Below, piece after piece: positions 2,741 to 51,495 of a DNA stretch of 64,000 bases; position 1 is the stretch's first letter, and the number at the start of each line of letters is the position of its first letter. A program made the translations under genes and the position numbers. Under the pieces are notes generated by a model. The model ran no database searches. It was not told the DNA's origin and worked only from the letters and a program-made list of their open reading frames with translations. The DNA comes from Afifella marina DSM 2698. GTDB taxonomy: Bacteria; Pseudomonadota; Alphaproteobacteria; Rhizobiales; Afifellaceae. Location of the stretch: contig NZ_FMVW01000002.1 of NCBI RefSeq assembly GCF_900102695.1, positions 62,001-126,000 of the forward strand, read 5' to 3'.

Positions 2741-3780
2741 CGGCCTCGGGTCTCGGTAAGCGTTTCGGCGAGACGGACGCGCTGCGTGCGGTCGACCTTG
2801 CCATCGAAAACGGAGAGTTCCTGGCGCTTCTCGGGCCTTCCGGTTGCGGCAAGACCACGCTTTTGCGCTTGATCGCCGGCTTTGAAGTGCCGGATGCGGG
2901 CGAATTGCATCTCGGTGACGAGGTGGTGGCGCGGGCGGGCTGGGCCTTGCCGCCCGAAGAGCGCAACGTCGGCATGGTGTTTCAGTCCTACGCGCTCTGG
3001 CCGCACATGTCGGTCGCCGACAATGTCGGTTTCGCGCTCAAGGTGCGCGGTCTAGAGGCTGGCGAATGCCGTCGGCGGATCGAGGATGCGCTCGAACTTG
3101 TGGGGCTCGGCGGCCTTTCCAGGCGCAAGCCGGCGGAGCTGTCGGGCGGACAGAAACAACGTGTGGCACTTGCCCGCTGTCTTGCCATGCAGCCCTCTGT
3201 CGTTCTTCTCGATGAGCCGCTCGCCAATCTCGACGCGCATCTGCGCGAAGCGATGCAGATCGAATTCCGCCGCTTTCACCGTGAGATCGGCGCCACCTTC
3301 GTCTACGTGACGCACGACCAGAGCGAGGCGATGGCGCTTGCCGATCGGGTCGCGGTGATGGATCGCGGGGCTTTGCAACAGGTCGCGGCGCCGCGGGAGC
3401 TCTACGCGGAGCCCGCAACCGAGATGGTGGCACGTTTCGTCGGACGCGGCATGGTCCTACCGGTGACGGTTGTCGGCCAGGACAGCGGCTTCATCGTCGC
3501 GGAGGCCTTTGGTGCGCAGATGCGGGTGAGGGGAACGGCGGCGGCCGGCGAAGAGCGCCTTCTCTGCGTGCGACCTGCCGATCTCGCGCTTGATGGTGCC
3601 GGTATGGAAGCGCGCGTCACCGCGGCTGCTTTCCAAGGGGCGGCGACCATCGTGTCGGCGCAGATCGAACAAGGAGAACATGTTTTGAGGCTCGAATGCC
3701 ATGGCCTGCCGCCTGAGGAAGGCGCGGCTGTCAGAATTTCCGTGCGCGATGGTTGGTTGTTGCCCGCGGGGCGCGCGTGA
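2728..3780 (+). CDS. ABC transporter ATP-binding protein
   Basis: A 350-residue ATPase that powers the importer. It has Walker A GPSGCGKTT, Q-loop FQSYALWPHM, signature LSGGQKQR, Walker B VVLLDEP and the switch histidine in VTHDQSEAMALADR, followed by a C-terminal TOBE-like domain from about residue 240. This is the FbpC/PotA/UgpC class. I place the start at the ATG at 2728, which overlaps the permease stop by 13 bp; longer in-frame extensions upstream lie inside the permease gene and look non-coding. The stop codon overlaps the next start by one base. Confidence 0.88.
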   Translation: MAGMTASGLGKRFGETDALRAVDLAIENGEFLALLGPSGCGKTTLLRLIAGFEVPDAGELHLGDEVVARAGWALPPEERNVGMVFQSYALWPHMSVADNVGFALKVRGLEAGECRRRIEDALELVGLGGLSRRKPAELSGGQKQRVALARCLAMQPSVVLLDEPLANLDAHLREAMQIEFRRFHREIGATFVYVTHDQSEAMALADRVAVMDRGALQQVAAPRELYAEPATEMVARFVGRGMVLPVTVVGQDSGFIVAEAFGAQMRVRGTAAAGEERLLCVRPADLALDGAGMEARVTAAAFQGAATIVSAQIEQGEHVLRLECHGLPPEEGAAVRISVRDGWLLPAGRA

Positions 3781-15776: not shown

Positions 15777-17456
15777 CTAAGCGGCCCGCACCCTTTCGAT
15801 GAAGATGTCGACCTGCTGACGGAGGCTTGAAGCCTGGGTGTCGAGGTCGTTGGCGGCGTGGACGATCTCGCTAGAGACGCGTCCGGTGTCGTTGGCCGCA
15901 CTCGTGACGGCGACGATGTTGGTGGAAACCTCCTGCGTCCCCTGAGCAGCCTGCTGAACGTTTTGGGCGATCTCGCCAGTAGCCGAGCCCTGCTCTTCGA
16001 CCGAGGAGGCGATCGTCGAGGAGATTTCGTCGATCTGCTTGATCGTGCCGGTGATCGATTCGATCGCTTTGACGACCTCGTTGGTGGCTTCCTGCACAGC
16101 TGTGATCTGCTGCGAGATCTCGCCGGTCGCCTTAGAGGTCTGTTCTGCGAGCGTCTTCACTTCCATGGCGACGACCGCAAAGCCCTTGCCGGCCTCTCCG
16201 GCACGAGCCGCCTCGATGGTGGCGTTCAGGGCCAACAGATTGGTCTGCGAGGCGATGTCGGTGATGAGGTTGACGACCTGGCCGATGCGCTGGGCGCTGG
16301 CGGCAAGACCGCGAATCACTTCGCCGGTGTTGGACGCCTGACCATTCGCGTGGCCGGCGACATTGGCGGCCATCGAGACCTGCTGACCGATCTCACGAAC
16401 CGAGGCAGCAAGTTCTTCAGCGGCCGATGCGACCGTCTGGACGTTAGTGGTCGCCTGTTCGGCGGCTGCTGCAACCACGGTCGACTGACGATTGGTTTCC
16501 TCAGCGGAAGAACTCATCGTCGAGGCCGACTGCTTCAGTTGCGTGACGGCGGAGACCACCGTGCGCACGATGCTCGAGACTTCCCGGTCGAAATCGTCGG
16601 CGAGCGCGTGCATGGCCTTGCGCTTGTCTTCTTCGGCGCGAGCGGCGAGCTCTTCCTGTTCGCCGCGCAGACGCTCGGCCTCGGCGAGACCGTCGCGGAA
16701 GATCGCGATCGCCTTCGACATTTCGCCAATCTCGTTCTGCTTGTCGGCATACGGGATCTCGGTGTCGAGCTTGCCGGCGCTCAAGTCGGTCATGACGCCG
16801 GTGATGCGGCCGATCGGGCGGATCACGCCGGTGGAGACGTAGACCATTGCGGCGCCGGCGATGATGACGCCGAAGGCAATGGCAATGAACATCTGAAGGC
16901 GTGCGGAATTGTAGGCCGACACCGACTCCGCGTAATCGCTTGCCGCGCCATCATTGTTGATCTGGACGGCGCTCATCAGGTCGTTGGAGAAGGAATCGAA
17001 GATCCGCCTCATCTGACCGCGGAGCAGATCATTGGCTTCCGCGGTCTGTCCGGCTGTGATGAGGCGGGCGACCTGCGGCTCGAGGCTGAGATACTCGGTG
17101 AACTTGGCGGAGAAATCCTTATAGAGCTTGCGCTCTTCATCGGAGGAAATCAGCGGCTCGTACTTCGCGCGCAGCGTGGCGATTTCTCCGATATTTTCCG
17201 CGATTGCAGCTTTCAGAGTCTGCTGCTCCTGCGGGTCGGTGGCCAGGAGATTGGCAATCTGTGCGATGCGCAGGTCAGAGGTGGCGGTGTTGATCTTGTT
17301 GATCGTGTCGATGCTCGGAACCCAGTTAAGGGCCTCGTTCTCGACGTTCGCCTGAATTTGGGCGAGTTTGCTCACGGACGTCCATCCGAGTGCGATCATT
17401 ATGACGATCAAAACGCCGAAGATCGCTGTCAGCGTGGACTTCAAATTCAGCTTCAT
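15777..17456 (-). CDS. Methyl-accepting chemotaxis protein, 4HB-type (first gene of che operon)
   Basis: A 559-residue transmembrane receptor. TM1 is at about residues 8-30, then a periplasmic four-helix-bundle-like domain, TM2 near 185-210 ([19 protein letters not shown]), HAMP, a coiled linker and the signalling domain. The hairpin tip reads [17 protein letters not shown] and is preceded by [26 protein letters not shown] start at the ATG at 17456 (MKLNLKST) rather than 30 bp upstream, because membrane insertion begins there. It lies 35 bp before cheA and its promoter element is at 17485-17512. Its signalling domain is nearly identical in DNA to those of the next two receptors. The ligand is unknown. 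Confidence 0.93.
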
Positions 17457-17484
17457 CACATTCTCCGTTCCGAGCCTGCCCTGC

Positions 17485-17512
17485 ATCTAGCTTTCAAAGC
17501 TTGCTCGTAGCT
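17485..17512 (-). promoter_or_regulatory. Putative flagellar/chemotaxis promoter of the che operon
   Basis: Read on the minus strand: AGCTACGAGCAAGCT, 7 nt, CTAGAT. It matches the shared motif at 12 of 15 positions upstream, plus the -10-like box, and lies 42 bp before the receptor start. Confidence 0.6.
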
Positions 17513-17910
17513 GGCAGTTGATGGCTCGCCTGCCGGGGGTGGTTATCTGCTGCTGTTGCAGTGTCGGGTACGTGATCGTCCGTGACGCATCTGGACGGAC
17601 CTGTCCGTTGTCTGCTCGTAGCCGACGGACTGATGGACCGACCGGGCGGCGAAACAGGCGGCATTTCTCGCGCCTGTGGGATACGCCCTTTGATCCGATG
17701 CCCCGTGGCATTGCAGCGGTGATTTGCGTGCAAGTGAAGTGTGCTGAAGACTCTGAAATTTCAGACGATTCGCGGACTTCGTCTCGCCTCGCAGACAGGA
17801 CAAAACCACTCAAGACTTGCGTGTAGCTTGCCTAAATATCTCGTTCTGGGTGTATTTGCGCGGTGATCTGGATGGGTTCGGATGCTGTGTGTTTTGAGCC
17901 ACAAACGCGA

Positions 17911-32023: not shown

Positions 32024-33280
32024 TTAGCGCTTGAGGTTCATCAGGACGTCCAGAAGCTCTGAGCCTGTCTGGAAGACCTTGGAATTGGCCGAATAATCCC
32101 GCTGGGCGACGATCATGTCGGTGAGCTCGGAAGCCATATCGACATTCGATTGCTCAAGCGCTCCGGAGACGATTGCGCCGCGTGATCCTTCCGTCGGGAA
32201 GCCGACCTCGATCGCGCCCGATTCCAGCGTCACCGAAAAGACGTTGCCGGAGAGGGCTTCGAGCTTGTCCGGGCTCGGCACGTCGGCCAGCGGCAGGCGG
32301 AAGGCCGGGGTCATCGCGCCATTGGTGTAATTGGCGTAGACCGTCCCGTCCTCGGAGATCGTCACATCCTTGATCGTCGCCGGCGCATTGCCGTTGACGG
32401 TGGCCGTCATCGGTATGTAATCCGCGGCAAGATGCGTGGTGCCCGTGAGATCGAGCGTGATCGCTTCACCGCCCGGCACGGTCAGTGCGATTTCAGCTGG
32501 TGTGCTCGTCAGGGCCCCGGCGTCGTCGAAGGTGACCGTCTGGGTCGACAACGCGGGCGATGCGTAGGGAAAGCCACCGTCGGTGGCGCCGGCGTGATCG
32601 TAGACCGTGTATGCCCATTCCGCCGGGCTGTCGCTCGTCTTCGACATGTAGATGTCGAGCGTCACTTCGTTGCCGACCTTGTCGAAGACGGTAATAGACG
32701 ACTTGGCGGTATAGGCTGAATCCGCCGCATTGGCGGACGGCAGGTTGCCTGTCACGACCTCTGCGCTGTCGGGCAGATTGACCTTGAAGACGCCGCTGGT
32801 GGTCGGATTGGCGGTCATGTTCATGCCGCCGAAATTGACGGGCTGAAGTCCCGTGAGTCCGTTCAGGACAACACTCGGATCGCCACCGCTGATATCGTAG
32901 CCCATCAGCGTGTAGCCGGCCGTGTTGACGAGATTGCCGGTGTTGCCGTCGAGGGTGAAGGCGCCTGCCCGGGTCAGATACGGATTGCCGTTCGGGTCGT
33001 TGACCACGAAGAAGCCATTGCCCTGGACGGCGAGGTCGGTGTTCGACGTCGTATAGGTCAGCGGTCCGCGATCGCTGATGGCATGACGGATGTCCGTCTT
33101 CACCGCACCCGGATTGTAACTGCCTTTGCCGCTGTTCAGGAGCAGCGATGAGAACTGGGTGTCAGCGCGTTTGTAACCGATCGTACCACTGTTGGCGATA
33201 TTGTCGGAGACCGTGCCGAGCAGATTCGATTGCGCGTTCATCCCCGAAACGCCCGTGCGGAGCATCCCATAGAGGCTCAT
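32024..33280 (-). CDS. flgE: Flagellar hook protein FlgE
   Basis: A 418-residue hook subunit. It starts MSLYGMLRTGVSGMNAQSNLLG and continues NSGTIGYKRADTQFSSLL, and ends with the family helix SELTDMIVAQRDYSANSKVFQTGSELLDVLM. The ATG at 33280 is preceded by AAGGA at 8 nt; the frame runs seven codons upstream without a ribosome site. It is the first gene of the minus-strand hook/junction operon, and a promoter element is seen at 33316-33343. Confidence 0.96.
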   Translation of the reverse strand: MSLYGMLRTGVSGMNAQSNLLGTVSDNIANSGTIGYKRADTQFSSLLLNSGKGSYNPGAVKTDIRHAISDRGPLTYTTSNTDLAVQGNGFFVVNDPNGNPYLTRAGAFTLDGNTGNLVNTAGYTLMGYDISGGDPSVVLNGLTGLQPVNFGGMNMTANPTTSGVFKVNLPDSAEVVTGNLPSANAADSAYTAKSSITVFDKVGNEVTLDIYMSKTSDSPAEWAYTVYDHAGATDGGFPYASPALSTQTVTFDDAGALTSTPAEIALTVPGGEAITLDLTGTTHLAADYIPMTATVNGNAPATIKDVTISEDGTVYANYTNGAMTPAFRLPLADVPSPDKLEALSGNVFSVTLESGAIEVGFPTEGSRGAIVSGALEQSNVDMASELTDMIVAQRDYSANSKVFQTGSELLDVLMNLKR

Positions 33281-33315
33281 CAGCTTAATCCTTTTCCTCA
33301 ACCCTTGTGTGGCCT

Positions 33316-33343
33316 GTTTGGCCCGGTGAGCTTGCGTGAAGCT
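33316..33343 (-). promoter_or_regulatory. Putative flagellar promoter of the flgE operon
   Basis: On the minus strand: AGCTTCACGCAAGCT, 7 nt, CCAAAC, ending about 35 bp before the flgE ATG. The 15-mer is identical to the one before flagellin; the -10-like box is the weakest of the set. Confidence 0.55.
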
Positions 33344-33354
33344 GTCGGTGGCGC

Positions 33355-34677
33355 CTACTGACGCAACAAGACAGCGAGGTCTGCGAAGGCGTCCTGGGCA
33401 AGCGGGCTCGAGGGGTCCTGACGCAGCGCATCATAGACGCGCGGCACGAGCTGAACGGCCCGGTCGAGCTCAGCATCGGCACCCTGGTGGTAGCCGCCCA
33501 TGAGCCTCAAATCGCGTGTGTCTTCGAAACGAGAGATCAAGGTGCGCAGCTTGCGCACCAATTCGCGCTGGTCGGACGTCCAAACGATCTGCGCCAGTCG
33601 CGAAATCGATCCGAGCACGTTGATGGCCGGGTAGCGGCCTTGATCGGCAATGGAACGATCGAGCACGATATGACCGTCCAGCGTGCCGCGGATGGCATCG
33701 GCAACAGGATCATTATGGTCGTCACCGTCGATCAGGACGGCGAAGATGCCGGTGATCGATCCGGCTCCTTCCTCGCCAGGGCCGGCTCGCTCCAAAAGCT
33801 TCGGCAGATCGGAAAAGACGCTGGGCGCATAGCCCCGCGCCACCGCCGGTTCGCCCGCAGCGAGCGCGATGTCGCGTGCCGCATGCGCGTAACGGGTGAC
33901 AGAATCGACGATAAGCAGGACGGAATCGCCCTGGTCCCGAAAGTACTCGGCGATCGCCATGGCCGAGAGCGGGGCGAGGCGGCGCATCATCGGGCCTTCG
34001 TCGCCGGTCGCCACGACCGTCACGGCGCGGGCACGATTGCCATTGAGCGCGCCTTCGATGAATTCCCGAACTTCACGGCCGCGCTCGCCGACCAACGCCA
34101 CGACGACCGTGTCGAAGCCGTGAGAATGCGCAATCATCGACAGAAGCGTGGACTTGCCGACGCCAGAGCCGGCGAAAATGCCGATGCGTTGTCCTTCGCA
34201 GATCGGCGTGAAGATATCGATGGCGCGCACGCCCGTCGTCAGAGGCCTGTGCAAGCGCGCGCGGGTCATTGCTGGTGGCGGTTCGGCGTCGACATTCATC
34301 ATGCGCTCGCCGTGGGCGAGGGGGCCGAGACCGTCCACCGGCTCGCCCATGGCATTGATGACGCGGCCTTTCCATTCGTCGCGGGGGGCGAGGCCGATCG
34401 CGCCGATACGATGCGCCTCGGTGCCTATGCCAAAGGGCATCCGTGTCTCGAAGGGTTTGACGATCACGTCACGCCCGTCGATGCGGACAACTTCGCCAAG
34501 CGCGTTCATTTTGTCCCAAGAAAAACGCACTCGCTCGCCGAGTCGCACGAATGGGGAAAGACCGGCGACGCGACAGTAAGTCGGCGCCACCTCCGTCACG
34601 AGACCGCCCACGCGCACGGGCGGGATTTCGACCGCTGCACTGTCGATCGCGGATTTGAGACGCGCGAGAGCGGTCAT
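33355..34677 (-). CDS. fliI: Flagellar type III export ATPase FliI
   Basis: A 440-residue ATPase related to F1-beta. Walker A GIFAGSGVGKSTLL, catalytic Glu in VALVGERGREVREF and Walker B SVLLIVDSVTRYA are visible. It energises export and is regulated by FliH (53148) and FliJ (24672). It lies downstream of flgF and 74 bp before flgE, which has its own promoter element. Confidence 0.97.
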   Translation of the reverse strand: MTALARLKSAIDSAAVEIPPVRVGGLVTEVAPTYCRVAGLSPFVRLGERVRFSWDKMNALGEVVRIDGRDVIVKPFETRMPFGIGTEAHRIGAIGLAPRDEWKGRVINAMGEPVDGLGPLAHGERMMNVDAEPPPAMTRARLHRPLTTGVRAIDIFTPICEGQRIGIFAGSGVGKSTLLSMIAHSHGFDTVVVALVGERGREVREFIEGALNGNRARAVTVVATGDEGPMMRRLAPLSAMAIAEYFRDQGDSVLLIVDSVTRYAHAARDIALAAGEPAVARGYAPSVFSDLPKLLERAGPGEEGAGSITGIFAVLIDGDDHNDPVADAIRGTLDGHIVLDRSIADQGRYPAINVLGSISRLAQIVWTSDQRELVRKLRTLISRFEDTRDLRLMGGYHQGADAELDRAVQLVPRVYDALRQDPSSPLAQDAFADLAVLLRQ

Positions 34678-34719
34678 TCAGCCATCCCCCCGATGTCGGA
34701 TCTTCTATTTTCTGATGGA

Positions 34720-35442
34720 TCAGGACGGGCCGAGAGAGCGGATTGCCTCTTGCTGCGTGGATTCGCTCTTCTCCACGGCCGAAGCCGCACTATCGAAGGC
34801 GCGTTGCAGCATGATCAGCTTGCTGATCTCGGAGATCGGATTGACGTTGGCGCCTTCGACGTAGCCCTGACGCAGGCCATTGACGGTCATATCCTCAACG
34901 GGCTGCGCCGCTTCGCTCGGGATTACCCCGGAGTTTTCATAGCGGCTGAGCTTGGCAGTTTCGGGGATCGAGAAAAGCCCGATTGCGCCAACCTGGTTGC
35001 CGCCTTGGGAAATGGTGCCATCCCCCGCGATCGATATCTCGCTGCCGCGCGGATCGAGAAGAATGCCAGCTTCGCCGGGATCGAGAACGGGATAGCCGGC
35101 GGTGCTCAGGAGCTCGCCGGTTGCCGTCATCTGCAGACGACCGTCGCGCGTGTAGACGGTGCCGTCTGGGGTCGAAAGCGCCAGCCAACCATCTCCTTGT
35201 ACCGCAACGTCGAGAGAGTTGCCCGTGTAGGAGACGGAGCCGGGATTGCGTGAAATATAGGTGTCGCCGGGTGACGAGAAGGCGACCTTGTCGGTGCCTG
35301 CCCGCGTCATCACAGCGTCGAATTTCACCTCTTCTGCGCGAAAGCCCGCCGTGTTCATGTTGGCGACGTTGTTGGCGATCGTCGTCAGGCGGCGGTCGAG
35401 CGCCACCTGTGCGGAGAGTGCGACGTAGGTGCTTGTCGGCAT
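34720..35442 (-). CDS. flgF: Flagellar proximal rod protein FlgF
   Basis: A 240-residue rod protein of the FlgF/FlgG class: TYVALSAQVALDRRLTTIANNVANMNTAGFRAEEV at the N-terminus and QGYVEGANVNPISEISKLIMLQRAFDSAASAVEKSE at the C-terminus. FlgG is separately encoded at 42600 with closer similarity to distal-rod FlgG, so FlgF is the better call here. It starts 3 bp after the DUF1217 gene. Confidence 0.93.
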   Translation of the reverse strand: MPTSTYVALSAQVALDRRLTTIANNVANMNTAGFRAEEVKFDAVMTRAGTDKVAFSSPGDTYISRNPGSVSYTGNSLDVAVQGDGWLALSTPDGTVYTRDGRLQMTATGELLSTAGYPVLDPGEAGILLDPRGSEISIAGDGTISQGGNQVGAIGLFSIPETAKLSRYENSGVIPSEAAQPVEDMTVNGLRQGYVEGANVNPISEISKLIMLQRAFDSAASAVEKSESTQQEAIRSLGPS

Positions 35443-35445
35443 GTC

Positions 35446-36225
35446 TCAGGTTCCGCCGTGCTTCAACTGGTTCAAAGTCAGGAGGAGATCGGCGCTGACC
35501 GATGTCGAGCGGCTGTTGGAAAAGAGATTGAGGATCGGATCCGCCGTCACGTTTTCGGTTGCGTCCCACATGATGGTGAAACGCTGGATGAGCTTGGCGA
35601 GTTTTTCCGGATCCTGCAGGTCAGCGATGTCCATCCGCTGCTCGACGGCCTTTGCCTGTTTTTCGATATCGGCGTTGGCCATTTCGGCGGGAAAGCCGAA
35701 GGTCGTTTTGATAACGGCCCACAGCGCATCATCTGCGAGGAGCCCATAGGCCGACTTCACCTCGGGCGCGGCACGCTCGAAATACAATGCGAGGCGGACG
35801 CCCTCGTTGTCGTCGCCGGCCCTCTCTTCGAGCGTCTGGCGGGTATAGAGATCGACAACGCCCTGCTGCGCCTCTTTCGCGGCGGTGGTCGTTTCGCCGT
35901 TCTCCGTGAAGTTGAAAACGGTTGCCAATTCCACGAAACGATCGTCCGACATGCGATTGGCAAAGCTCTTCGGATCGCTCACGCCCTCTTCCAGGACCTT
36001 GCGAATTAAGCCCTTTGCGTAAGCCATATCTTCAAGGCCGAAGGCCTTCATCGCGTAGTTGTAAACGCGATCGTTGTCGAAGAAGTCGTCGATCGATTTG
36101 ATCGTGCCGATATTGGCGAGGTAGTAGTTGGTTTCGCGCGTCACGATCCGGTCGCTGGAGACACGGCTCAGAGACTTGTCCATATCGCCGGAGATGCGCT
36201 GATAGCTGAGAGATGTCGAGATCAT
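35446..36225 (-). CDS. DUF1217 flagellar-locus protein
   Basis: A 259-residue soluble, mainly helical protein with the DUF1217 signature TNYYLANIGTIKSIDDFFDNDRVYNYAMKAFGLEDMAYAKG (starting at about residue 33). The family is found between flgF and motA in Rhizobiales flagellar clusters and has no assigned biochemical role. It is the first gene of the DUF1217-flgF-fliI unit, with a promoter element at 36250-36277, and is divergent from motA. Being first in an operon with the rod gene suggests an early assembly role; that is inference. Confidence 0.88.
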   Translation of the reverse strand: MISTSLSYQRISGDMDKSLSRVSSDRIVTRETNYYLANIGTIKSIDDFFDNDRVYNYAMKAFGLEDMAYAKGLIRKVLEEGVSDPKSFANRMSDDRFVELATVFNFTENGETTTAAKEAQQGVVDLYTRQTLEERAGDDNEGVRLALYFERAAPEVKSAYGLLADDALWAVIKTTFGFPAEMANADIEKQAKAVEQRMDIADLQDPEKLAKLIQRFTIMWDATENVTADPILNLFSNSRSTSVSADLLLTLNQLKHGGT

Positions 36226-36249: not shown

Positions 36250-36277
36250 CTCTAGGTCGCCAAGCTTGCGCGAGACT
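36250..36277 (-). promoter_or_regulatory. Putative flagellar promoter of the DUF1217-flgF-fliI operon
   Basis: On the minus strand: AGTCTCGCGCAAGCT, 7 nt, CTAGAG. The -10-like box ends 24 bp before the ATG. Confidence 0.6.
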
Positions 36278-36335
36278 GGCTTTCTCCTGCCGCTGCCAGC
36301 TGCTTGGCGATACGGCCGACGCTGCCGAACGCTCC

Positions 36336-36363
36336 AGCTTCACGCAAGCCAAATCGAACAGTG
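36336..36363 (+). promoter_or_regulatory. Putative flagellar promoter of the motA operon
   Basis: AGCTTCACGCAAGCC, 7 nt, ACAGTG. The upstream half is nearly perfect and the -10-like box is poor. If it is a promoter, transcription starts downstream of the GTG at 36361, which supports the TTG start of motA at 36400. Confidence 0.5.
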
Positions 36364-36399: not shown

Positions 36400-37290
36400 T
36401 TGGCTATCCTACTCGGCTTGGTGATCGGCATCGGCTCGATGCTCGGCGGCTTCATGGCTATGGGCGGCCATGTGGGTGTCATCTGGCAGCCCTTCGAATA
36501 CGTGATCATCGTCGGAATCGCGCTTGGCACTTTCATCATCGCCAACCCGATGGCGATCATCAAAGATGCCGGGGCGGGTATCTTCGAGGCAATGAAGGGC
36601 ACGGCGCCGAAGCGGAACGATTATCTGAGCATTCTGAGTCTGCTTTTTGCGTTGATGCGAGATCTCAGGACGCGACCTCGCAACGAGGTCGAAGCTCATA
36701 TCGACGATCCGGCGAATTCGGTGCTGTTTCAGCACTTTCCGACGATCCTGAAGGATAAAGAGCTCACTGCTTATATCTGTGACTACGTTCGCCTGATCAT
36801 TATCGGCAATGCGCGCTCGCACGAGATCGAGGGGCTGATGGAGCAGGAGATCTCGACGATCAAGAAGCACAAGCTGAAGTCTGCCGGAGCATTGGGGACG
36901 GTCGCCGAAGCGCTTCCGGCGATCGGTATCTGCGCCGCTGTCTTGGGTATCGTGAAGGCGATGGGCGCTATTGATCAGTCACCGGAGATTCTCGGCCACT
37001 ATATCGCCTCGGCGCTGATCGGAACGTTCATCGGTATTTTTCTTTCCTACGCAGTGCTTTCCCCCCTGGCGGGGAAGATCAAGATTTTGCGTGAAAAGCA
37101 GTGCCAGCCGTTTGTCATAGTCAAGCAGACGCTCATTGCCTTCATGAATGGTGCGCTGCCCCAGGTCGCGCTCGAGCATGGCCGCAAGACGATTTCTTCC
37201 AAAGAGCGCCCGACCATCGACGAGGTCGAAAACGAGGCGATTTCCAACACACCGAGCTCATCGGCAGCTCCCATGCAGCAGGCGGCCTGA
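36400..37290 (+). CDS. motA: Flagellar stator protein MotA
   Basis: A 296-residue stator subunit with four membrane helices, the cytoplasmic loop with charged residues (MRDLRTRPRNEVEAHIDD) and two conserved prolines (ALPAIGICAAVLGIV and LSPLAGKI) used in torque generation. I choose the TTG at 36400: TGGAG lies at 36388-36392, and the resulting N-terminus MAILLGLVIGIGSMLGGFMAMGG aligns end to end with known MotA (E. coli begins MLILLGYLVVLG and has 295 residues). Longer in-frame starts (GTG 36361, ATG 36304) add a polar N-terminal tail absent from the family. It is first in motA-fliM-fliN-fliG-flhB. Confidence 0.93.
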   Translation: MAILLGLVIGIGSMLGGFMAMGGHVGVIWQPFEYVIIVGIALGTFIIANPMAIIKDAGAGIFEAMKGTAPKRNDYLSILSLLFALMRDLRTRPRNEVEAHIDDPANSVLFQHFPTILKDKELTAYICDYVRLIIIGNARSHEIEGLMEQEISTIKKHKLKSAGALGTVAEALPAIGICAAVLGIVKAMGAIDQSPEILGHYIASALIGTFIGIFLSYAVLSPLAGKIKILREKQCQPFVIVKQTLIAFMNGALPQVALEHGRKTISSKERPTIDEVENEAISNTPSSSAAPMQQAA

Positions 37291-41385: not shown

Positions 41386-41454
41386 CCCTTTCGCTTCCCA
41401 CGCCAGCTTCGGGCAAGGCTCGATGTCTAGCTAGGGTCGCGTAGAGCGAAAGGG
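41386..41454 (+). repeat. 10-bp inverted repeat spanning the flgB promoter and ribosome site
   Basis: CCCTTTCGCT (41386-41395) is a perfect complement of AGCGAAAGGG (41445-41454), whose end is part of the AAAGGGAGG ribosome site of flgB. The left arm lies upstream of the putative start of transcription, so the pair can only form in read-through RNA from the flhB operon. Confidence 0.5.
41405..41432 (+). promoter_or_regulatory. Putative flagellar promoter of the flgB operon
   Basis: AGCTTCGGGCAAGGC, 7 nt, CTAGCT; the -10-like box ends 31 bp before the TTG start of flgB. It shares the spacing seen at the other five sites. Confidence 0.6.
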
Positions 41455-41463
41455 AGGTTCCTC

Positions 41464-41847
41464 TTGCAGCCCGTTCATTTATTTGATCTCGCTGCCCGTC
41501 AGGCGCAATGGGCGTCCGTCCGGCAGTCGCTGATCGCTGGCAATATTGCCAATGCCAATACACCGGGATACGTCGCCAGGGATATCGAGCCTTTCTCCAA
41601 GATCTTGGATTCCACGCATCTTGAGATGACGCGTACCGCGTCGGGCCACGTCGATATATCCGGCACGTCTCTCGAGACCGGCAAGGTCAAGCCTGAGGAT
41701 AGCTGGGATGTGAGCTTCTCGGGCAATTCCGTCAGCGTTGATCAGGAACTGATCAAGGCCGGCGGGACCGAGCGCGCCTTCCAGCTCAATGCCAGCCTGG
41801 TGAAGGCCTTCCATCGCATGTTCCTGATGAGCGTGAGGTCGAGCTGA
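41464..41847 (+). CDS. flgB: Flagellar basal-body rod protein FlgB
   Basis: A 127-residue proximal rod protein: [39 protein letters not shown] carries the ANANTPGY rod signature, and the C-terminus [20 protein letters not shown] is typical. It starts with TTG, supported by GGGAGG 8 nt upstream and correct N-terminal length. First gene of flgB-flgC-fliE-flgG-flgA-flgI-motE-flgH-fliL-fliP. Confidence 0.94.
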
Positions 41848-47863: not shown

Positions 47864-48027
47864 CCTCGAGACATCGAAGTCGTTTCAAAAACGCTCAAAA
47901 AATTAACCGCAACTTCGATCAAACCGGCCTGGCGCTTCCGTGAACGTTAGGGGAAGTTTGAAGCAAGCCCGGTGCAAGCTGACTGAAGCCTTGTGTGCTG
48001 ACGCAACGTCATTAGGGGGCGCACACA
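47864..48027. other. Intergenic region between fliP and the Cache chemoreceptor
   Basis: 164 bp. It has an A-rich stretch near 47885-47910 and two partial matches to the flagellar promoter core (GCAAGCC at 47963-47969, GCAAGCT at 47974-47980) at a suitable distance from the receptor start, but without a good -10 box. No clear terminator for fliP was seen. Confidence 0.4.
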
Positions 48028-49722
48028 ATGAAAAGAGGACTTCGTCTCAAGCTGGGACACAAGATTTATGCCGTTCTTGCTGTTGGTTTTATAGGTTTTT
48101 CGATCATTTCCGGGTTCCAGTTGCTTGAACTGGGTCGCGCGCTCGAAGATCAAAAGAGCCGTGAGCTGTCGCACCTGACAGAGCTCGCACTCGACATCGC
48201 GAAGGAAGAAGAGGCCACGGTCGCGACTGGCGCTAGCTCGCTTCAAGAGGCGCAGGCGGATGCGGCTCGCCGTATCGGAGCGCTACGTTATGGCGACAAC
48301 GACTATTTCTGGATCAAGGATCGCAACGCCCGCATGGTGATGCATCCGATCAAGCCGGAGCTCAATGGCACGGATCTGACCTCGATCACGGATCCGTCCG
48401 GCAAGCACCTCTTCGTTGAGATGCTCGATCTGGTGGCCAAAGAGGGCAGGGGGTTCGTTCGCTACGAATGGCCCAAACCCGGTTCAGCGGAGCCGCAGCC
48501 CAAGCTTTCCTATGTCGACAAATTCGCTCCCTGGGGCTGGGTGATCGGCACTGGCGTCTACATTGATGATTTGCGCGCGCAGACATGGGCAACGGCAAAG
48601 ACCGTTCTCCTGATTGGTGGCCTCGTGCTGCTCGTCGTGGCGGCAATCTGCGGTTTCGTTGCCAGACGTATCTCACAAGCAATGCATGCCACGACCGCGG
48701 CCATGAACGAACTCGCCGGTGGTAATTTCGAGATTGTCCTGCCGGGGCTCGATCGGGGCGATGAAGTGGGCGAGATTGCTCGCGCCGTTGAGGTGTTCAA
48801 ACAAAAAGCCATCGAAAAGGCGCGGCTCGAAGCCGAAGAGCGCGAAAACAAGGCACGCCAGGCCGAGGCAGAGAGACGCCAGGAAATGCAGCGCCTGGCG
48901 GATATGTTTGAAAATGCCGTCGGCGAGGTCACCGAGGGCGTGTCGTCTGCGGCAACGGAACTTGAAGCGGCCGCCGGTTCGATGACGGAAACGGCGGAAC
49001 GCACCGAAAGCCTCTCAAGCACGGTCGTCAGCATTTCCGGCCAGACTTCGTCCAATGTCCAGTCCGTCGCGTCTGCCTCAGAAGAACTGGGCGCGTCGGT
49101 TGGAGAGATCAGCCGTCGCGTTCAGGAGAGCGCGAAGATTGCCGGCGAAGCTGTCGAACAGGCCGGCAGCGCCAATCGCCGGGTGGTCGATCTCGCCGAT
49201 GCGGCCCGTCGCGTGGGTGCGGTCGTGAACCTGATCACGGCGATTGCCGAGCAGACCAATTTGCTTGCGCTCAACGCGACCATAGAGGCAGCCCGCGCCG
49301 GCGATGCCGGCAAGGGCTTCGCAGTCGTGGCGATGGAAGTGAAAACGCTCGCTGCTCAGACGGCGAAGGCGACGGAAGAAATCATCGGTCAGATCACTTC
49401 AATGCAGAAGGCGACAGGCGAGGCGGAGAGTTCGATCCGTTCAATCACGGAGACCATTGCACGCATGTCTGAAATATCTGCGGCGGTCGCCGATGCGGCG
49501 GAGCAGCAGTATGAGGCGACCCGCGAGATCGCCGAGAACATTCAAGAAGCGGCGCATGGCACGGCGCAGGTCGCGACCAATATCCTCGATGTGCAGGAGG
49601 GTGCAGGCGCGACGGGTGCTGCCTCTTCGCAGGTTCTGGCTTCGGCGCGCTCTCTGTCTCAGGAGAGCCATCGCCTCAAGCAGGAAGTGCAGAGCTTCCT
49701 GGCAACGGTGCGTGCCGCCTGA
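48028..49722 (+). CDS. Methyl-accepting chemotaxis protein with single-Cache domain
   Basis: A 564-residue receptor with TM1 at about 12-34, a periplasmic sCache_2 domain ([33 protein letters not shown] ... [16 protein letters not shown]), TM2 at about 192-212, HAMP and a signalling domain ([46 protein letters not shown]). sCache_2 receptors commonly sense short carboxylates such as propionate or pyruvate; the actual ligand is unknown. It is of a different lineage from the four receptors on the minus strand and is placed just before flagellin. Confidence 0.94.
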
Positions 49723-49840: not shown

Positions 49841-49868
49841 AGCTTCACGCAAGCTTGCGCTGCTATCC
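49841..49868 (+). promoter_or_regulatory. Putative flagellin promoter
   Basis: AGCTTCACGCAAGCT, 7 nt, CTATCC. The 15-mer is identical to that before flgE and one base off that before motA. It would put the transcript start near 49875 and give a leader of about 150 nt. Confidence 0.6.
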
Positions 49869-49875
49869 CTTCATG

Positions 49876-49980
49876 CATGGCAGGTTGGTTGCTCGACACG
49901 GGCAGCAGTTACGGAAGCCGAGTGCTCCGTCCCACCAAAGGCATGATGCCGCCCTGCCATGCCGGTGAAAGCCCGGCATG
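49876..49980 (+). promoter_or_regulatory. Flagellin mRNA leader with two exclusive pairings
   Basis: CATGGCAGG (49876-49884) can pair with CCTGCCATG (49953-49961), while CATGCCGG (49958-49965) can pair with CCGGCATG (49973-49980). The two use the same bases 49958-49961, so they compete. FlbT acts on flagellin leaders in relatives and is encoded at 28700-29110. Confidence 0.45.
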
Positions 49981-50024
49981 TCCCCATCAATATCTCTGAC
50001 ACTTAGTCTGAAGGGACATCAATT

Positions 50025-51308
50025 ATGTCTAGCCTTATCACCAACACCTCCGCAATGGTCGCCCTGCAGACCCTGCGTTCGATCAACTCCAACCTGGACG
50101 AGACGAACAACCGGGTTTCCACCGGCCTGCGGGTGAATACCGCTTCCGACAACGCCGCCTACTGGTCCATCGCCACGACCATGCGCTCCGACAATCAGGC
50201 CATGTCGGCCGTGAAGGACGCTCTTGGCATGGGCTCGGCCACCGTCGATGCGGCTTATACCGGCCTCTCCAAGGCTGAAGAAGTCCTGACCAAAATCAAG
50301 GCGAGCCTTGGTGCTGCGACGGGCGAAGGTGTCGACCGGGCGAAGGTTCAGGAGCAGATTTCGGCTTATCAGGACCAGCTGAAGACGATCGCGGAATCCG
50401 CGTCGTTCTCCGGCCAGAACTGGCTGAGCACGGGCTCCAGCACGGCCTTCAACAAGGAGATCGTGTCGTCGCTGTCGCGTGATGCCAACAACAAGCTTGC
50501 GATTGGCACCATCGACGTCGATATCACCAACACCCGTCTTTATGGCGATGGTACCGCTCAGTTCGGTATCCTCGACAAGACGATCGACCTGAACACCTAC
50601 ACCTCTAACTCGGGTCAGGCGGCAAGCGTCGAGACGGCTGCGGTGGCCTTTGCTGCGGCGGATGACAAGATCAGCTTCAGCGTGTCGCAGAACGGCGCTC
50701 CGGCCAAGACGGTCGAGATCACTCAGCAGACCCTGGCGGATGCCGGCCTGTCTGACACCTCGATCCGCTCGAATGCCGATCTTGCGGCGGTCTACACTCA
50801 GGCCCTGAAGGATGCCGGTATTGAGGGCATCGACGTGGTTCTGGACGGCACTGACCAGGTTGAGTTCTCGTCTACCGATGACTTCAGCATCTCCGGTGCC
50901 ACGACTGCCGGCGCGACCGGTATCACTGTCGCTTCGCTCGGCCTGTCGGCCACCGACGTGACGACTTCGGCGGCTGCGGCTGGTGCTGCCTCCGTTGCCA
51001 CGATCGACATCTCGTCGGCTTCTGGCACCGAAGTGCAGAACTTCATGAAGGTCGTCGACGAGGCGCTTGGTCAGGTGACCTCGGCTGCGTCTTCTCTCGG
51101 TACGGTTCAGACCCGCATCGACATGCAGACGGAGTTCGTGAAGACCCTGATGAGCACGATCGACACGGGCGTTGGTGCCCTGGTCGACGCGGACATGGAA
51201 GAGGAATCCACGAAACTGAAGGCTCTCCAGACCCAGCAGCAGCTGGCTGTGCAGTCGCTCAGCATCGCAAACTCCTCGAGCCAGAACATCCTGTCGCTCT
51301 TCCGTTAA
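50025..51308 (+). CDS. Flagellin
   Basis: A 427-residue filament protein. The conserved N-terminus (SLITNTSAMVALQTLRSINSNLDETNNRVSTGLRVNTASDNAAYWSIATTMRSD) and C-terminus (LMSTIDTGVGALVDADMEEESTKLKALQTQQQLAVQSLSIANSSSQNILSLFR) are Rhizobiales-type. The central third (about 190-320) is variable, rich in Ala, Ser and Thr. It is the only flagellin gene in the window, although relatives often carry several in tandem. AAGGGA lies 8 nt upstream. A strong terminator follows. Confidence 0.97.
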   Translation: MSSLITNTSAMVALQTLRSINSNLDETNNRVSTGLRVNTASDNAAYWSIATTMRSDNQAMSAVKDALGMGSATVDAAYTGLSKAEEVLTKIKASLGAATGEGVDRAKVQEQISAYQDQLKTIAESASFSGQNWLSTGSSTAFNKEIVSSLSRDANNKLAIGTIDVDITNTRLYGDGTAQFGILDKTIDLNTYTSNSGQAASVETAAVAFAAADDKISFSVSQNGAPAKTVEITQQTLADAGLSDTSIRSNADLAAVYTQALKDAGIEGIDVVLDGTDQVEFSSTDDFSISGATTAGATGITVASLGLSATDVTTSAAAAGAASVATIDISSASGTEVQNFMKVVDEALGQVTSAASSLGTVQTRIDMQTEFVKTLMSTIDTGVGALVDADMEEESTKLKALQTQQQLAVQSLSIANSSSQNILSLFR

Positions 51309-51423: not shown

Positions 51424-51451
51424 ACGCTGAGGCAAGCTTATCACGTCAAAT
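51424..51451 (+). promoter_or_regulatory. Weak copy of the flagellar promoter element before fliF
   Basis: Keeps GCAAGCT (51432-51438), the 7-nt gap and a -10-like TCAAAT, but lacks the upstream AGCTTC half. It lies 44 bp before the fliF ATG. Confidence 0.35.
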
Positions 51452-51495
51452 CCCCATGAGACGCAATGCAAGACTGTATGGCGTGGGGAGACTTG

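Follow-up and report, generated by a model that had tools for sequence, protein, structure and literature searches.

A DNA element of the form AGCYTCRNGCAAGCYT-N7-TA stands before flagellar and chemotaxis transcription units of Afifella marina DSM 2698 and is conserved across many families of the order Hyphomicrobiales. Comparison of the sequences shows it to be a real flagellar promoter element, and very probably the operator of the regulator called FtcR, Rem or LafR.

Copies of the element in the window

The window, that is, the whole stretch of 64,000 nucleotides analysed here, carries the genes of a rhizobial-type flagellar and che cluster. A first-pass annotation made from the letters alone had picked out six 28-mers as copies of one element, and all six were found where it placed them, on the strands given. 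They are listed with weaker copies and the genes concerned; scores are those of a matrix built from sites of other genera (see below).

17485..17512, minus strand: element before the chemoreceptor (MCP) gene that comes first in the che operon; CTA at positions 23-25; identical in the sister species G001
33316..33343, minus strand: element before the hook gene flgE; carries the exact 14-mer; has A25 but not TA
36250..36277, minus strand: element before the DUF1217-flgF-fliI genes; -10 CTAGAG; score 28.5
36336..36363, plus strand: element before motA; exact 14-mer; A at 25, no TA; score 20.5
41405..41432, plus strand: element before the flgB operon; -10 CTAGCT; score 24.3
49841..49868, plus strand: element before flagellin; exact 14-mer; -10 CTATCC; score 28.6; long leader downstream
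51424..51452, plus strand: weak element before fliF; GCAAGCTT retained, A at 25; score 11.6
47955..47983, plus strand: candidate element before a third chemoreceptor gene (48028-49722); no TA; score 9.0; similar copy in G001
17800..17828, minus strand: candidate for a second copy, lying upstream of the MCP operon; lacks TA; first 30 bases the same in G001
15777..17486, minus strand: frame of the chemoreceptor, with 4HB_MCP, HAMP and MCPsignal domains; translation probably begins at the ATG that lies 28 bp downstream from the 28-mer
32024..33301, minus strand: flgE frame; translation probably begins about 7 codons further in
33355..36225, minus strand: DUF1217, flgF and fliI genes
36400..37290, plus strand: motA; start probably TTG
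41464..41847, plus strand: flgB; Flg_bb_rod domain, named from its position before flgC
50025..51308, plus strand: flagellin

The 15-mers before flgE and flagellin are identical, as had been noted, and the CTA falls at positions 23-25 in four of the six sites (MCP, DUF1217, flgB and flagellin); the flgE and motA sites are without T24. In five of the six the start codon lies about 37-49 bp from the end of the 15-mer, the flagellin start being about 170 bp away. The start of motA had to be corrected, probably being the TTG at about 36400. The exact 14-mer precedes flgE also in G001, G002, G004 and Propylenella.

This 14-mer, AGCTTCACGCAAGC, occurs three times in the 3.96-Mb genome, each time at a listed site (flgE, motA and flagellin), and there are no one-mismatch copies in the genome. 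With up to two mismatches 43 matches were obtained vs 41 for the reversed control, i.e. no genome-wide excess, so that weak copies are not meaningful without further evidence. Within the window alone, up to three mismatches gave 17 matches against 9.7 expected, and a degenerate 16-mer with one mismatch gave 9 against 1.08 expected, a level reached by none of 100 shuffles; eight of these nine matches lie before motility genes and one inside fliM.

The comparison was also run in reverse, with a matrix of 29 columns that was trained on 119 sites from outside Afifella (77 clusters) and applied to the window. Exactly the six noted sites took ranks 1-6. Five of them score 20.5-28.6 vs a maximum of 18.7 among 60 first-order random windows; the MCP site, at 14.2, is not exceptional against those windows on this matrix alone, and scores 22.8 with the six-site matrix, in which it is a training site. 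The six sites are real and not the product of chance. The 11.6 of the fliF element is inside the chance range for the whole window; fliF is also preceded by sites in S. meliloti, G038 and G144 and by a weak one in G291. No site was found before flhA in Afifella inside its 37-bp gap.

Among 297 genomes of the order the exact 14-mer has 31 matches: nine in Afifella, all before flagellar genes, one in Propylenella (flgE) and 21 elsewhere, of which only that of G291 (flagellin) had a homologue of a flagellar gene of the window within its 3-kb locus. The reversed 14-mer gave 20 matches across the order. As the exact 14-mer is at background outside the family, a wider consensus was used instead.

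Several chemoreceptor genes and the cheA region in other Afifella species carry their own copies, often of the form AGCYAC...GCAAG (L169 12146, 15924, 17917, 18050; L166 11975, 13832), and a further match in another Afifella species, at L169 14232, has no assigned gene. A weak element (L158 14913-14928) is found some 70 bp upstream of the gene of a CheY-like, single-domain response regulator (L158:15000-15383), a gene that is itself about 1 kb upstream of ftcR; similar sequences are present in G001, G003 and G004, the downstream gene having been checked in the window's genome. A strict copy outside the flagellar cluster (L208 2967-2991, G000:C13:898966-898990) is followed by a 59-aa frame (MSGDMKVTGSR..., ORF at 3099) that sits between genes for NAD synthase and a glutamyl/glutaminyl-type tRNA synthetase. 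Both this site and the leader of the frame are kept in G001 and G002, and the frame is a candidate new member of the regulon.

Conservation of the flagellin mRNA leader (window 49875-50024, some 150 nt) extends to another family (G291), the conserved pieces being GGCAGGTTGG, CCAAAGGCATGATGCCG and CCGGTGAAAGCCCGG; in Afifella a hairpin, ATGTCCC...GGGACAT, adjoins the start codon. A structure predicted from five leader sequences, two of them nearly identical, has 49 pairs, eight with two-sided changes, and the single-sequence z-score is only -1.9. The leader has no match in Rfam. The leader may serve to control translation, and FlbT could be what acts on it.

Conservation and anatomy across the order

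The matrix built from the six sites alone was run on 80 named loci bearing MotA, counting scores of at least 10 within 200 bp upstream and excluding the two Afifella loci, homologues that begin past residue 40 and loci without 200 bp of upstream sequence. Among the usable non-Afifella loci a site was found before motA in 65 of 76, DUF1217 in 27 of 37, flgB in 27 of 33, flgE in 41 of 50 and flhA in 35 of 44. The element typically lies 25-50 bp upstream in these genera, with median distances to the homologous start of 36 (motA), 45 (DUF1217), 43 (flgB), 18 (flgE) and 28 bp (flhA); for flgE, the frame in the window has an early start.

Genes inside operons gave almost no sites: fliM 1/69, fliG 0/68, fliI 0/68, flgC 0/32, flgG 0/32, flhB 0/68, fliP 0/21, flgK 0/38 and flgL 0/31. 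The remaining non-Afifella rows were flgI 0/6, motB 0/18 and the transglycosylase 0/1, and sites before flagellin (fla) are not general (one of six loci from other genera). For flgF a site was found at 27 of 74 loci (reverse-strand count 26), and these are read as loci where flgF, not DUF1217, heads the unit. The reverse-strand counts for motA (55) and DUF1217 (25) correspond to the facing promoter of the divergent pair. Column-permuted matrices averaged less than one site per gene, although single permutations reached 13. The genomes are related and many of the 80 loci are from Microvirga, so the locus counts are not independent. The scan of related genomes, which the first-pass annotation had put forward as the check on its element, thus gave a strong motility bias.

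The logo was drawn from motA, DUF1217 and flgB matches scoring at least 10 only (119 sites). Its consensus is AGCYTCR-N-GCAAGCYT (column 8 reads S), followed by seven open positions, T24 A25 and a pyrimidine at 29. As the sites were selected by the starting matrix, columns 1-16 of the logo lean towards that matrix; columns 17-36 do not. TA is at 24-25 in 78 of the 119 sites and in at most six at any other position from 17 to 34. A -10 box at fixed spacing had been claimed from the six copies, and it is confirmed independently by this count, since positions 24-25 are outside the matrix that found the sites.

The two AGCYT half-sites occupy positions 1-5 and 12-16, a spacing of 11 bp. When the columns were compared at offset 11, as for a direct repeat, their similarity was equalled by 10 of 20000 column permutations; for the best offset between 8 and 12 the figure was 12 of 5000. 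Exact AGCYT was found in the first half-site of 83 of the 119 sites, in the second of 48 and in both of 36. The core had earlier been described as an inverted repeat, AGCTT-N5-AAGCT; this is perfect in the flgE and flagellin copies, but the order-wide columns favour the direct repeat AGCYT-N6-AGCYT, and the inverted reading was set aside as a description of the element. Tandem half-sites with a 10-11 bp period at a fixed distance from the -10 are features of OmpR/PhoB-type boxes and, by analogy with these, the layout is that of an OmpR/PhoB-type box replacing a -35.

In S. meliloti (locus L175, CP090106.1:694000-743500) sites bearing TA precede motA, flgB, flgE, flhA and fliF, and another such site is found 316 bp upstream of the motB-containing unit; at DUF1217 the site reads CA instead of TA, and the che site is weak. 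Sites of this locus lie at L175 positions 10229, 19776, 19831, 24986, 37147, 43499 and 48861. No site was found within 300 bp of rem, visN or flaA-D, and there is a weak match (10.2) 326 bp before flaB. Three matches are unexplained by the model: one inside motC (40348), one antisense between flaD and flaC (35629, minus strand) and one just before fliN within an operon (17864, minus strand). Flagellar and che genes in S. meliloti are normally chromosomal; the 3.7-Mb record that carries the cluster here is labelled plasmid pSymB, and the label looks wrong.

Two genomes, G038 and G144, which appear to have two flagellar clusters, contain two divergent FlhA copies besides any third, one beside ftcR that is 68-69% identical to that of the window and another that is 44% identical. 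In the ftcR cluster a site scoring at least 11 precedes motA, DUF1217, flgB, fla, fliF, flgE and flhA. In the other cluster, where few genes were recognised (flhA, fliI, che), none precedes a recognised gene, and the matches without an assigned gene number two in G038 and none in G144. An OmpR-type paralogue was also matched in the second-cluster regions of both genomes. We infer that the second cluster is polar.

The probable regulator and its rivals

The window's genome has an FtcR orthologue at G000:C12:161025-161690, 35 kb past the window, FtcR being assigned here by similarity and position without a match to a curated FtcR model. Its winged-helix domain passes the Pfam threshold and its receiver match is below the cut-off. 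It is 55-59% identical to three aligned orthologues, with the stretch VVE.HISKLRKKLR nearly unchanged, and 57% identical to the S. meliloti regulator encoded between a transglycosylase gene and flgE, which from its position and similarity we read as rem. In Propylenella an OmpR-type regulator gene lies directly upstream of flgE (L038 1550-2221). According to the part of PMC8639532 consulted, most of the species compared there have FtcR-like genes close to flagellar genes.

Of the eleven genomes of the family, six encode MotA (five Afifella and Propylenella), and each of these gave a match to FtcR of 3.3e-80 or stronger; in the five where MotA had no match the best value is 4.9e-19, short of FtcR grade. 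In a survey of 150 genomes of the order, in which FtcR was called at E<=1e-40 and strict elements were counted, FtcR was present in 32. These 32 hold 72 strict elements (2.25 each) vs 30 in the 118 others (0.25 each), and at least one strict element was found in 26 of the 32 vs 26 of the 118; the reversed pattern gave 23 matches in the genomes with FtcR and 64 in those lacking it. Forty of the 72 are within 70 kb of ftcR on the same contig and 32 are not near it, and six genomes with FtcR (G005, G067, G071, G103, G122 and G137) are without a strict match. Four FtcR-less genomes have two strict matches (G052, G087, G099 and G114). Those of G052, which lie upstream of an oxidoreductase gene and of a frame that had no Pfam match, are read as chance; the G114 region holds four matches of at least 11 in 30.7 kb, without an assigned gene.

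There are strong grounds for believing that the element is the operator-promoter of the middle-class flagellar regulon, bound by FtcR/Rem/LafR, with the activator in place of a -35. In the proposed mechanism, where this is class II of the flagellar hierarchy, the two AGCYT half-sites 11 bp apart would bind a dimer of OmpR/PhoB-type FtcR (Rem in Sinorhizobium, LafR in Bradyrhizobium). With the conserved T24 taken as -12, the box would cover about -35 to -20, so that the activator would occupy the place of the -35 hexamer. It would then recruit the housekeeping sigma factor, the remaining core signal being a -10 of the form TANNNY. The idea of a shared promoter-like element, perhaps a regulator site overlapping the -35, had already been put forward in the first-pass annotation, and the motility bias and the fixed -10 support it; beyond this, the comparison of genomes suggests FtcR/Rem as the likely binder.

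It would be rather unlikely, though the point deserves weighing, that the protein bound by the element is another regulator, of the OmpR type or not, which happens to travel with FtcR and flagella, FtcR acting upstream of it. Because FtcR and flagella do travel together, their co-occurrence does not by itself tell a direct role from an indirect one, and the window's genome has ten other OmpR-type matches. In addition, the FtcR motif obtained by ChIP-seq in Brucella melitensis, TGTGGGCA, found in 118 of 363 peaks according to the part of PMC9456535 consulted, differs from the element. This motif, which comes from a biofilm study of one species and may not define the family, has no match in the window, and as an operator it was rejected on its absence from the eight promoter regions of the window. 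Against a different regulator, the elements mark the cluster that bears ftcR in G038 and G144, those of S. meliloti precede class II genes and not rem, and, among the OmpR-type matches of the window's genome, the second best is a long way behind (3e-17 vs 1.9e-85).

The rigid spacing and the conserved block upstream of the -10 might also be expected if these were the -35 and -10 of a promoter for a dedicated flagellar sigma factor with no activator. This is very unlikely: FliA/sigma-28 was above the curated cut-off in none of five genomes, while three of 14 control genomes passed it, and the best sigma matches in the five lie in frames of the size of RpoD and RpoH. Moreover, a conserved block of 16 bp that contains an 11-bp repeat does not resemble a hexamer.

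It is highly improbable that these genes are driven from sigma-54 promoters, by RpoN together with an activator like FlbD. The window's only perfect TGGCA-N6-TTGC (49878-49892) is in the flagellin leader, just downstream of the flagellin element, but TGGC-N7-TTGC is missing from the other seven of the eight promoter regions and one-mismatch sigma-54 matches in the window are at chance (19 vs 15.5). The TTGC of the leader match is not kept in G003, G004 or G291, while GGCAGG pairs in the predicted leader structure.

Although the flgE and flagellin copies are perfect inverted repeats, a LuxR-type (VisNR) operator is scarcely credible, since the order-wide columns agree better with a direct than with an inverted repeat, no VisR relative was found at E<=1e-8 in any of seven element-bearing genomes (in a search without a positive control) and visNR is missing from Azorhizobium caulinodans and Bradyrhizobium diazoefficiens, as stated in the part of PMC8429497 consulted. 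A CtrA-dependent promoter was rejected, exact TTAA-N7-TTAA being found in none of the eight promoter regions.

Comparison with known systems

No promoter of the element's form is described in the literature searched, although a footprint in Rotter et al. 2006 (Rem) or Mongiardini et al. 2017 (LafR) is possible. No such box appears in the consulted parts of PMC9456535, PMC8429497, PMC8639532 and PMC3616915, nor in those of PMC7674921, PMC10572780, PMC5996035 and PMC6406911. Regulator and regulon were known before; what appears to be undescribed in this literature is the box with its rigid architecture.

On balance we favour a wider proposal, that AGCYTCRNGCAAGCYT-N7-TA is the previously undefined operator-promoter of the Rem/FtcR/LafR regulon across the Hyphomicrobiales, that at most middle flagellar promoters the place of the -35 is taken by an OmpR-type regulator whose receiver is divergent, that TGTGGGCA is not its flagellar operator and that the box predicts new members, such as the conserved 59-aa protein. 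With such a box and its rigid -10 defined, the regulon could be identified in genome sequences, the two flagellar systems of species with dual flagella would be easier to distinguish, and the question of promoter recognition by the regulator would be reduced to a single binding experiment.

The Pho box and other boxes of the OmpR/PhoB family consist of two half-sites 11 bp apart upstream of a -10, with no recognisable -35. The element shares the half-site spacing of the Pho box and its place before the -10, but differs from it in half-site sequence and regulon. CtrA belongs to the same class of winged-helix response regulators as the OmpR-type proteins, and its box in alphaproteobacterial flagellar genes, TTAA-N7-TTAA, has the 4+7+4 layout seen in AGCY-N7-AGCY with different bases. 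Motif 3 of S. meliloti, TTCA-N7-TTCA, a candidate FeuP site upstream of mapped starts, is likewise a repeat with an 11-bp period, but its sequence and genes differ from those of the element, and none of the three de novo motifs in the part of PMC3616915 consulted is the element.

For the Rem/FtcR/LafR regulon itself the literature searched contains no consensus box, and the published TGTGGGCA is a different sequence; the set of genes behind the element is like this regulon in the kinds of downstream gene and in the presence, often with linkage, of the regulator family. As reported in the part of PMC8429497 consulted, Rem/LafR governs the flagella of S. meliloti and R. leguminosarum and, in Bradyrhizobium, the lateral system, LafR controlling lateral, not polar, flagella there, and in the hierarchy VisNR activates rem and Rem activates the class II genes. 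The distribution of the element in S. meliloti matches this hierarchy, the class II genes having it and rem and visN being without it.
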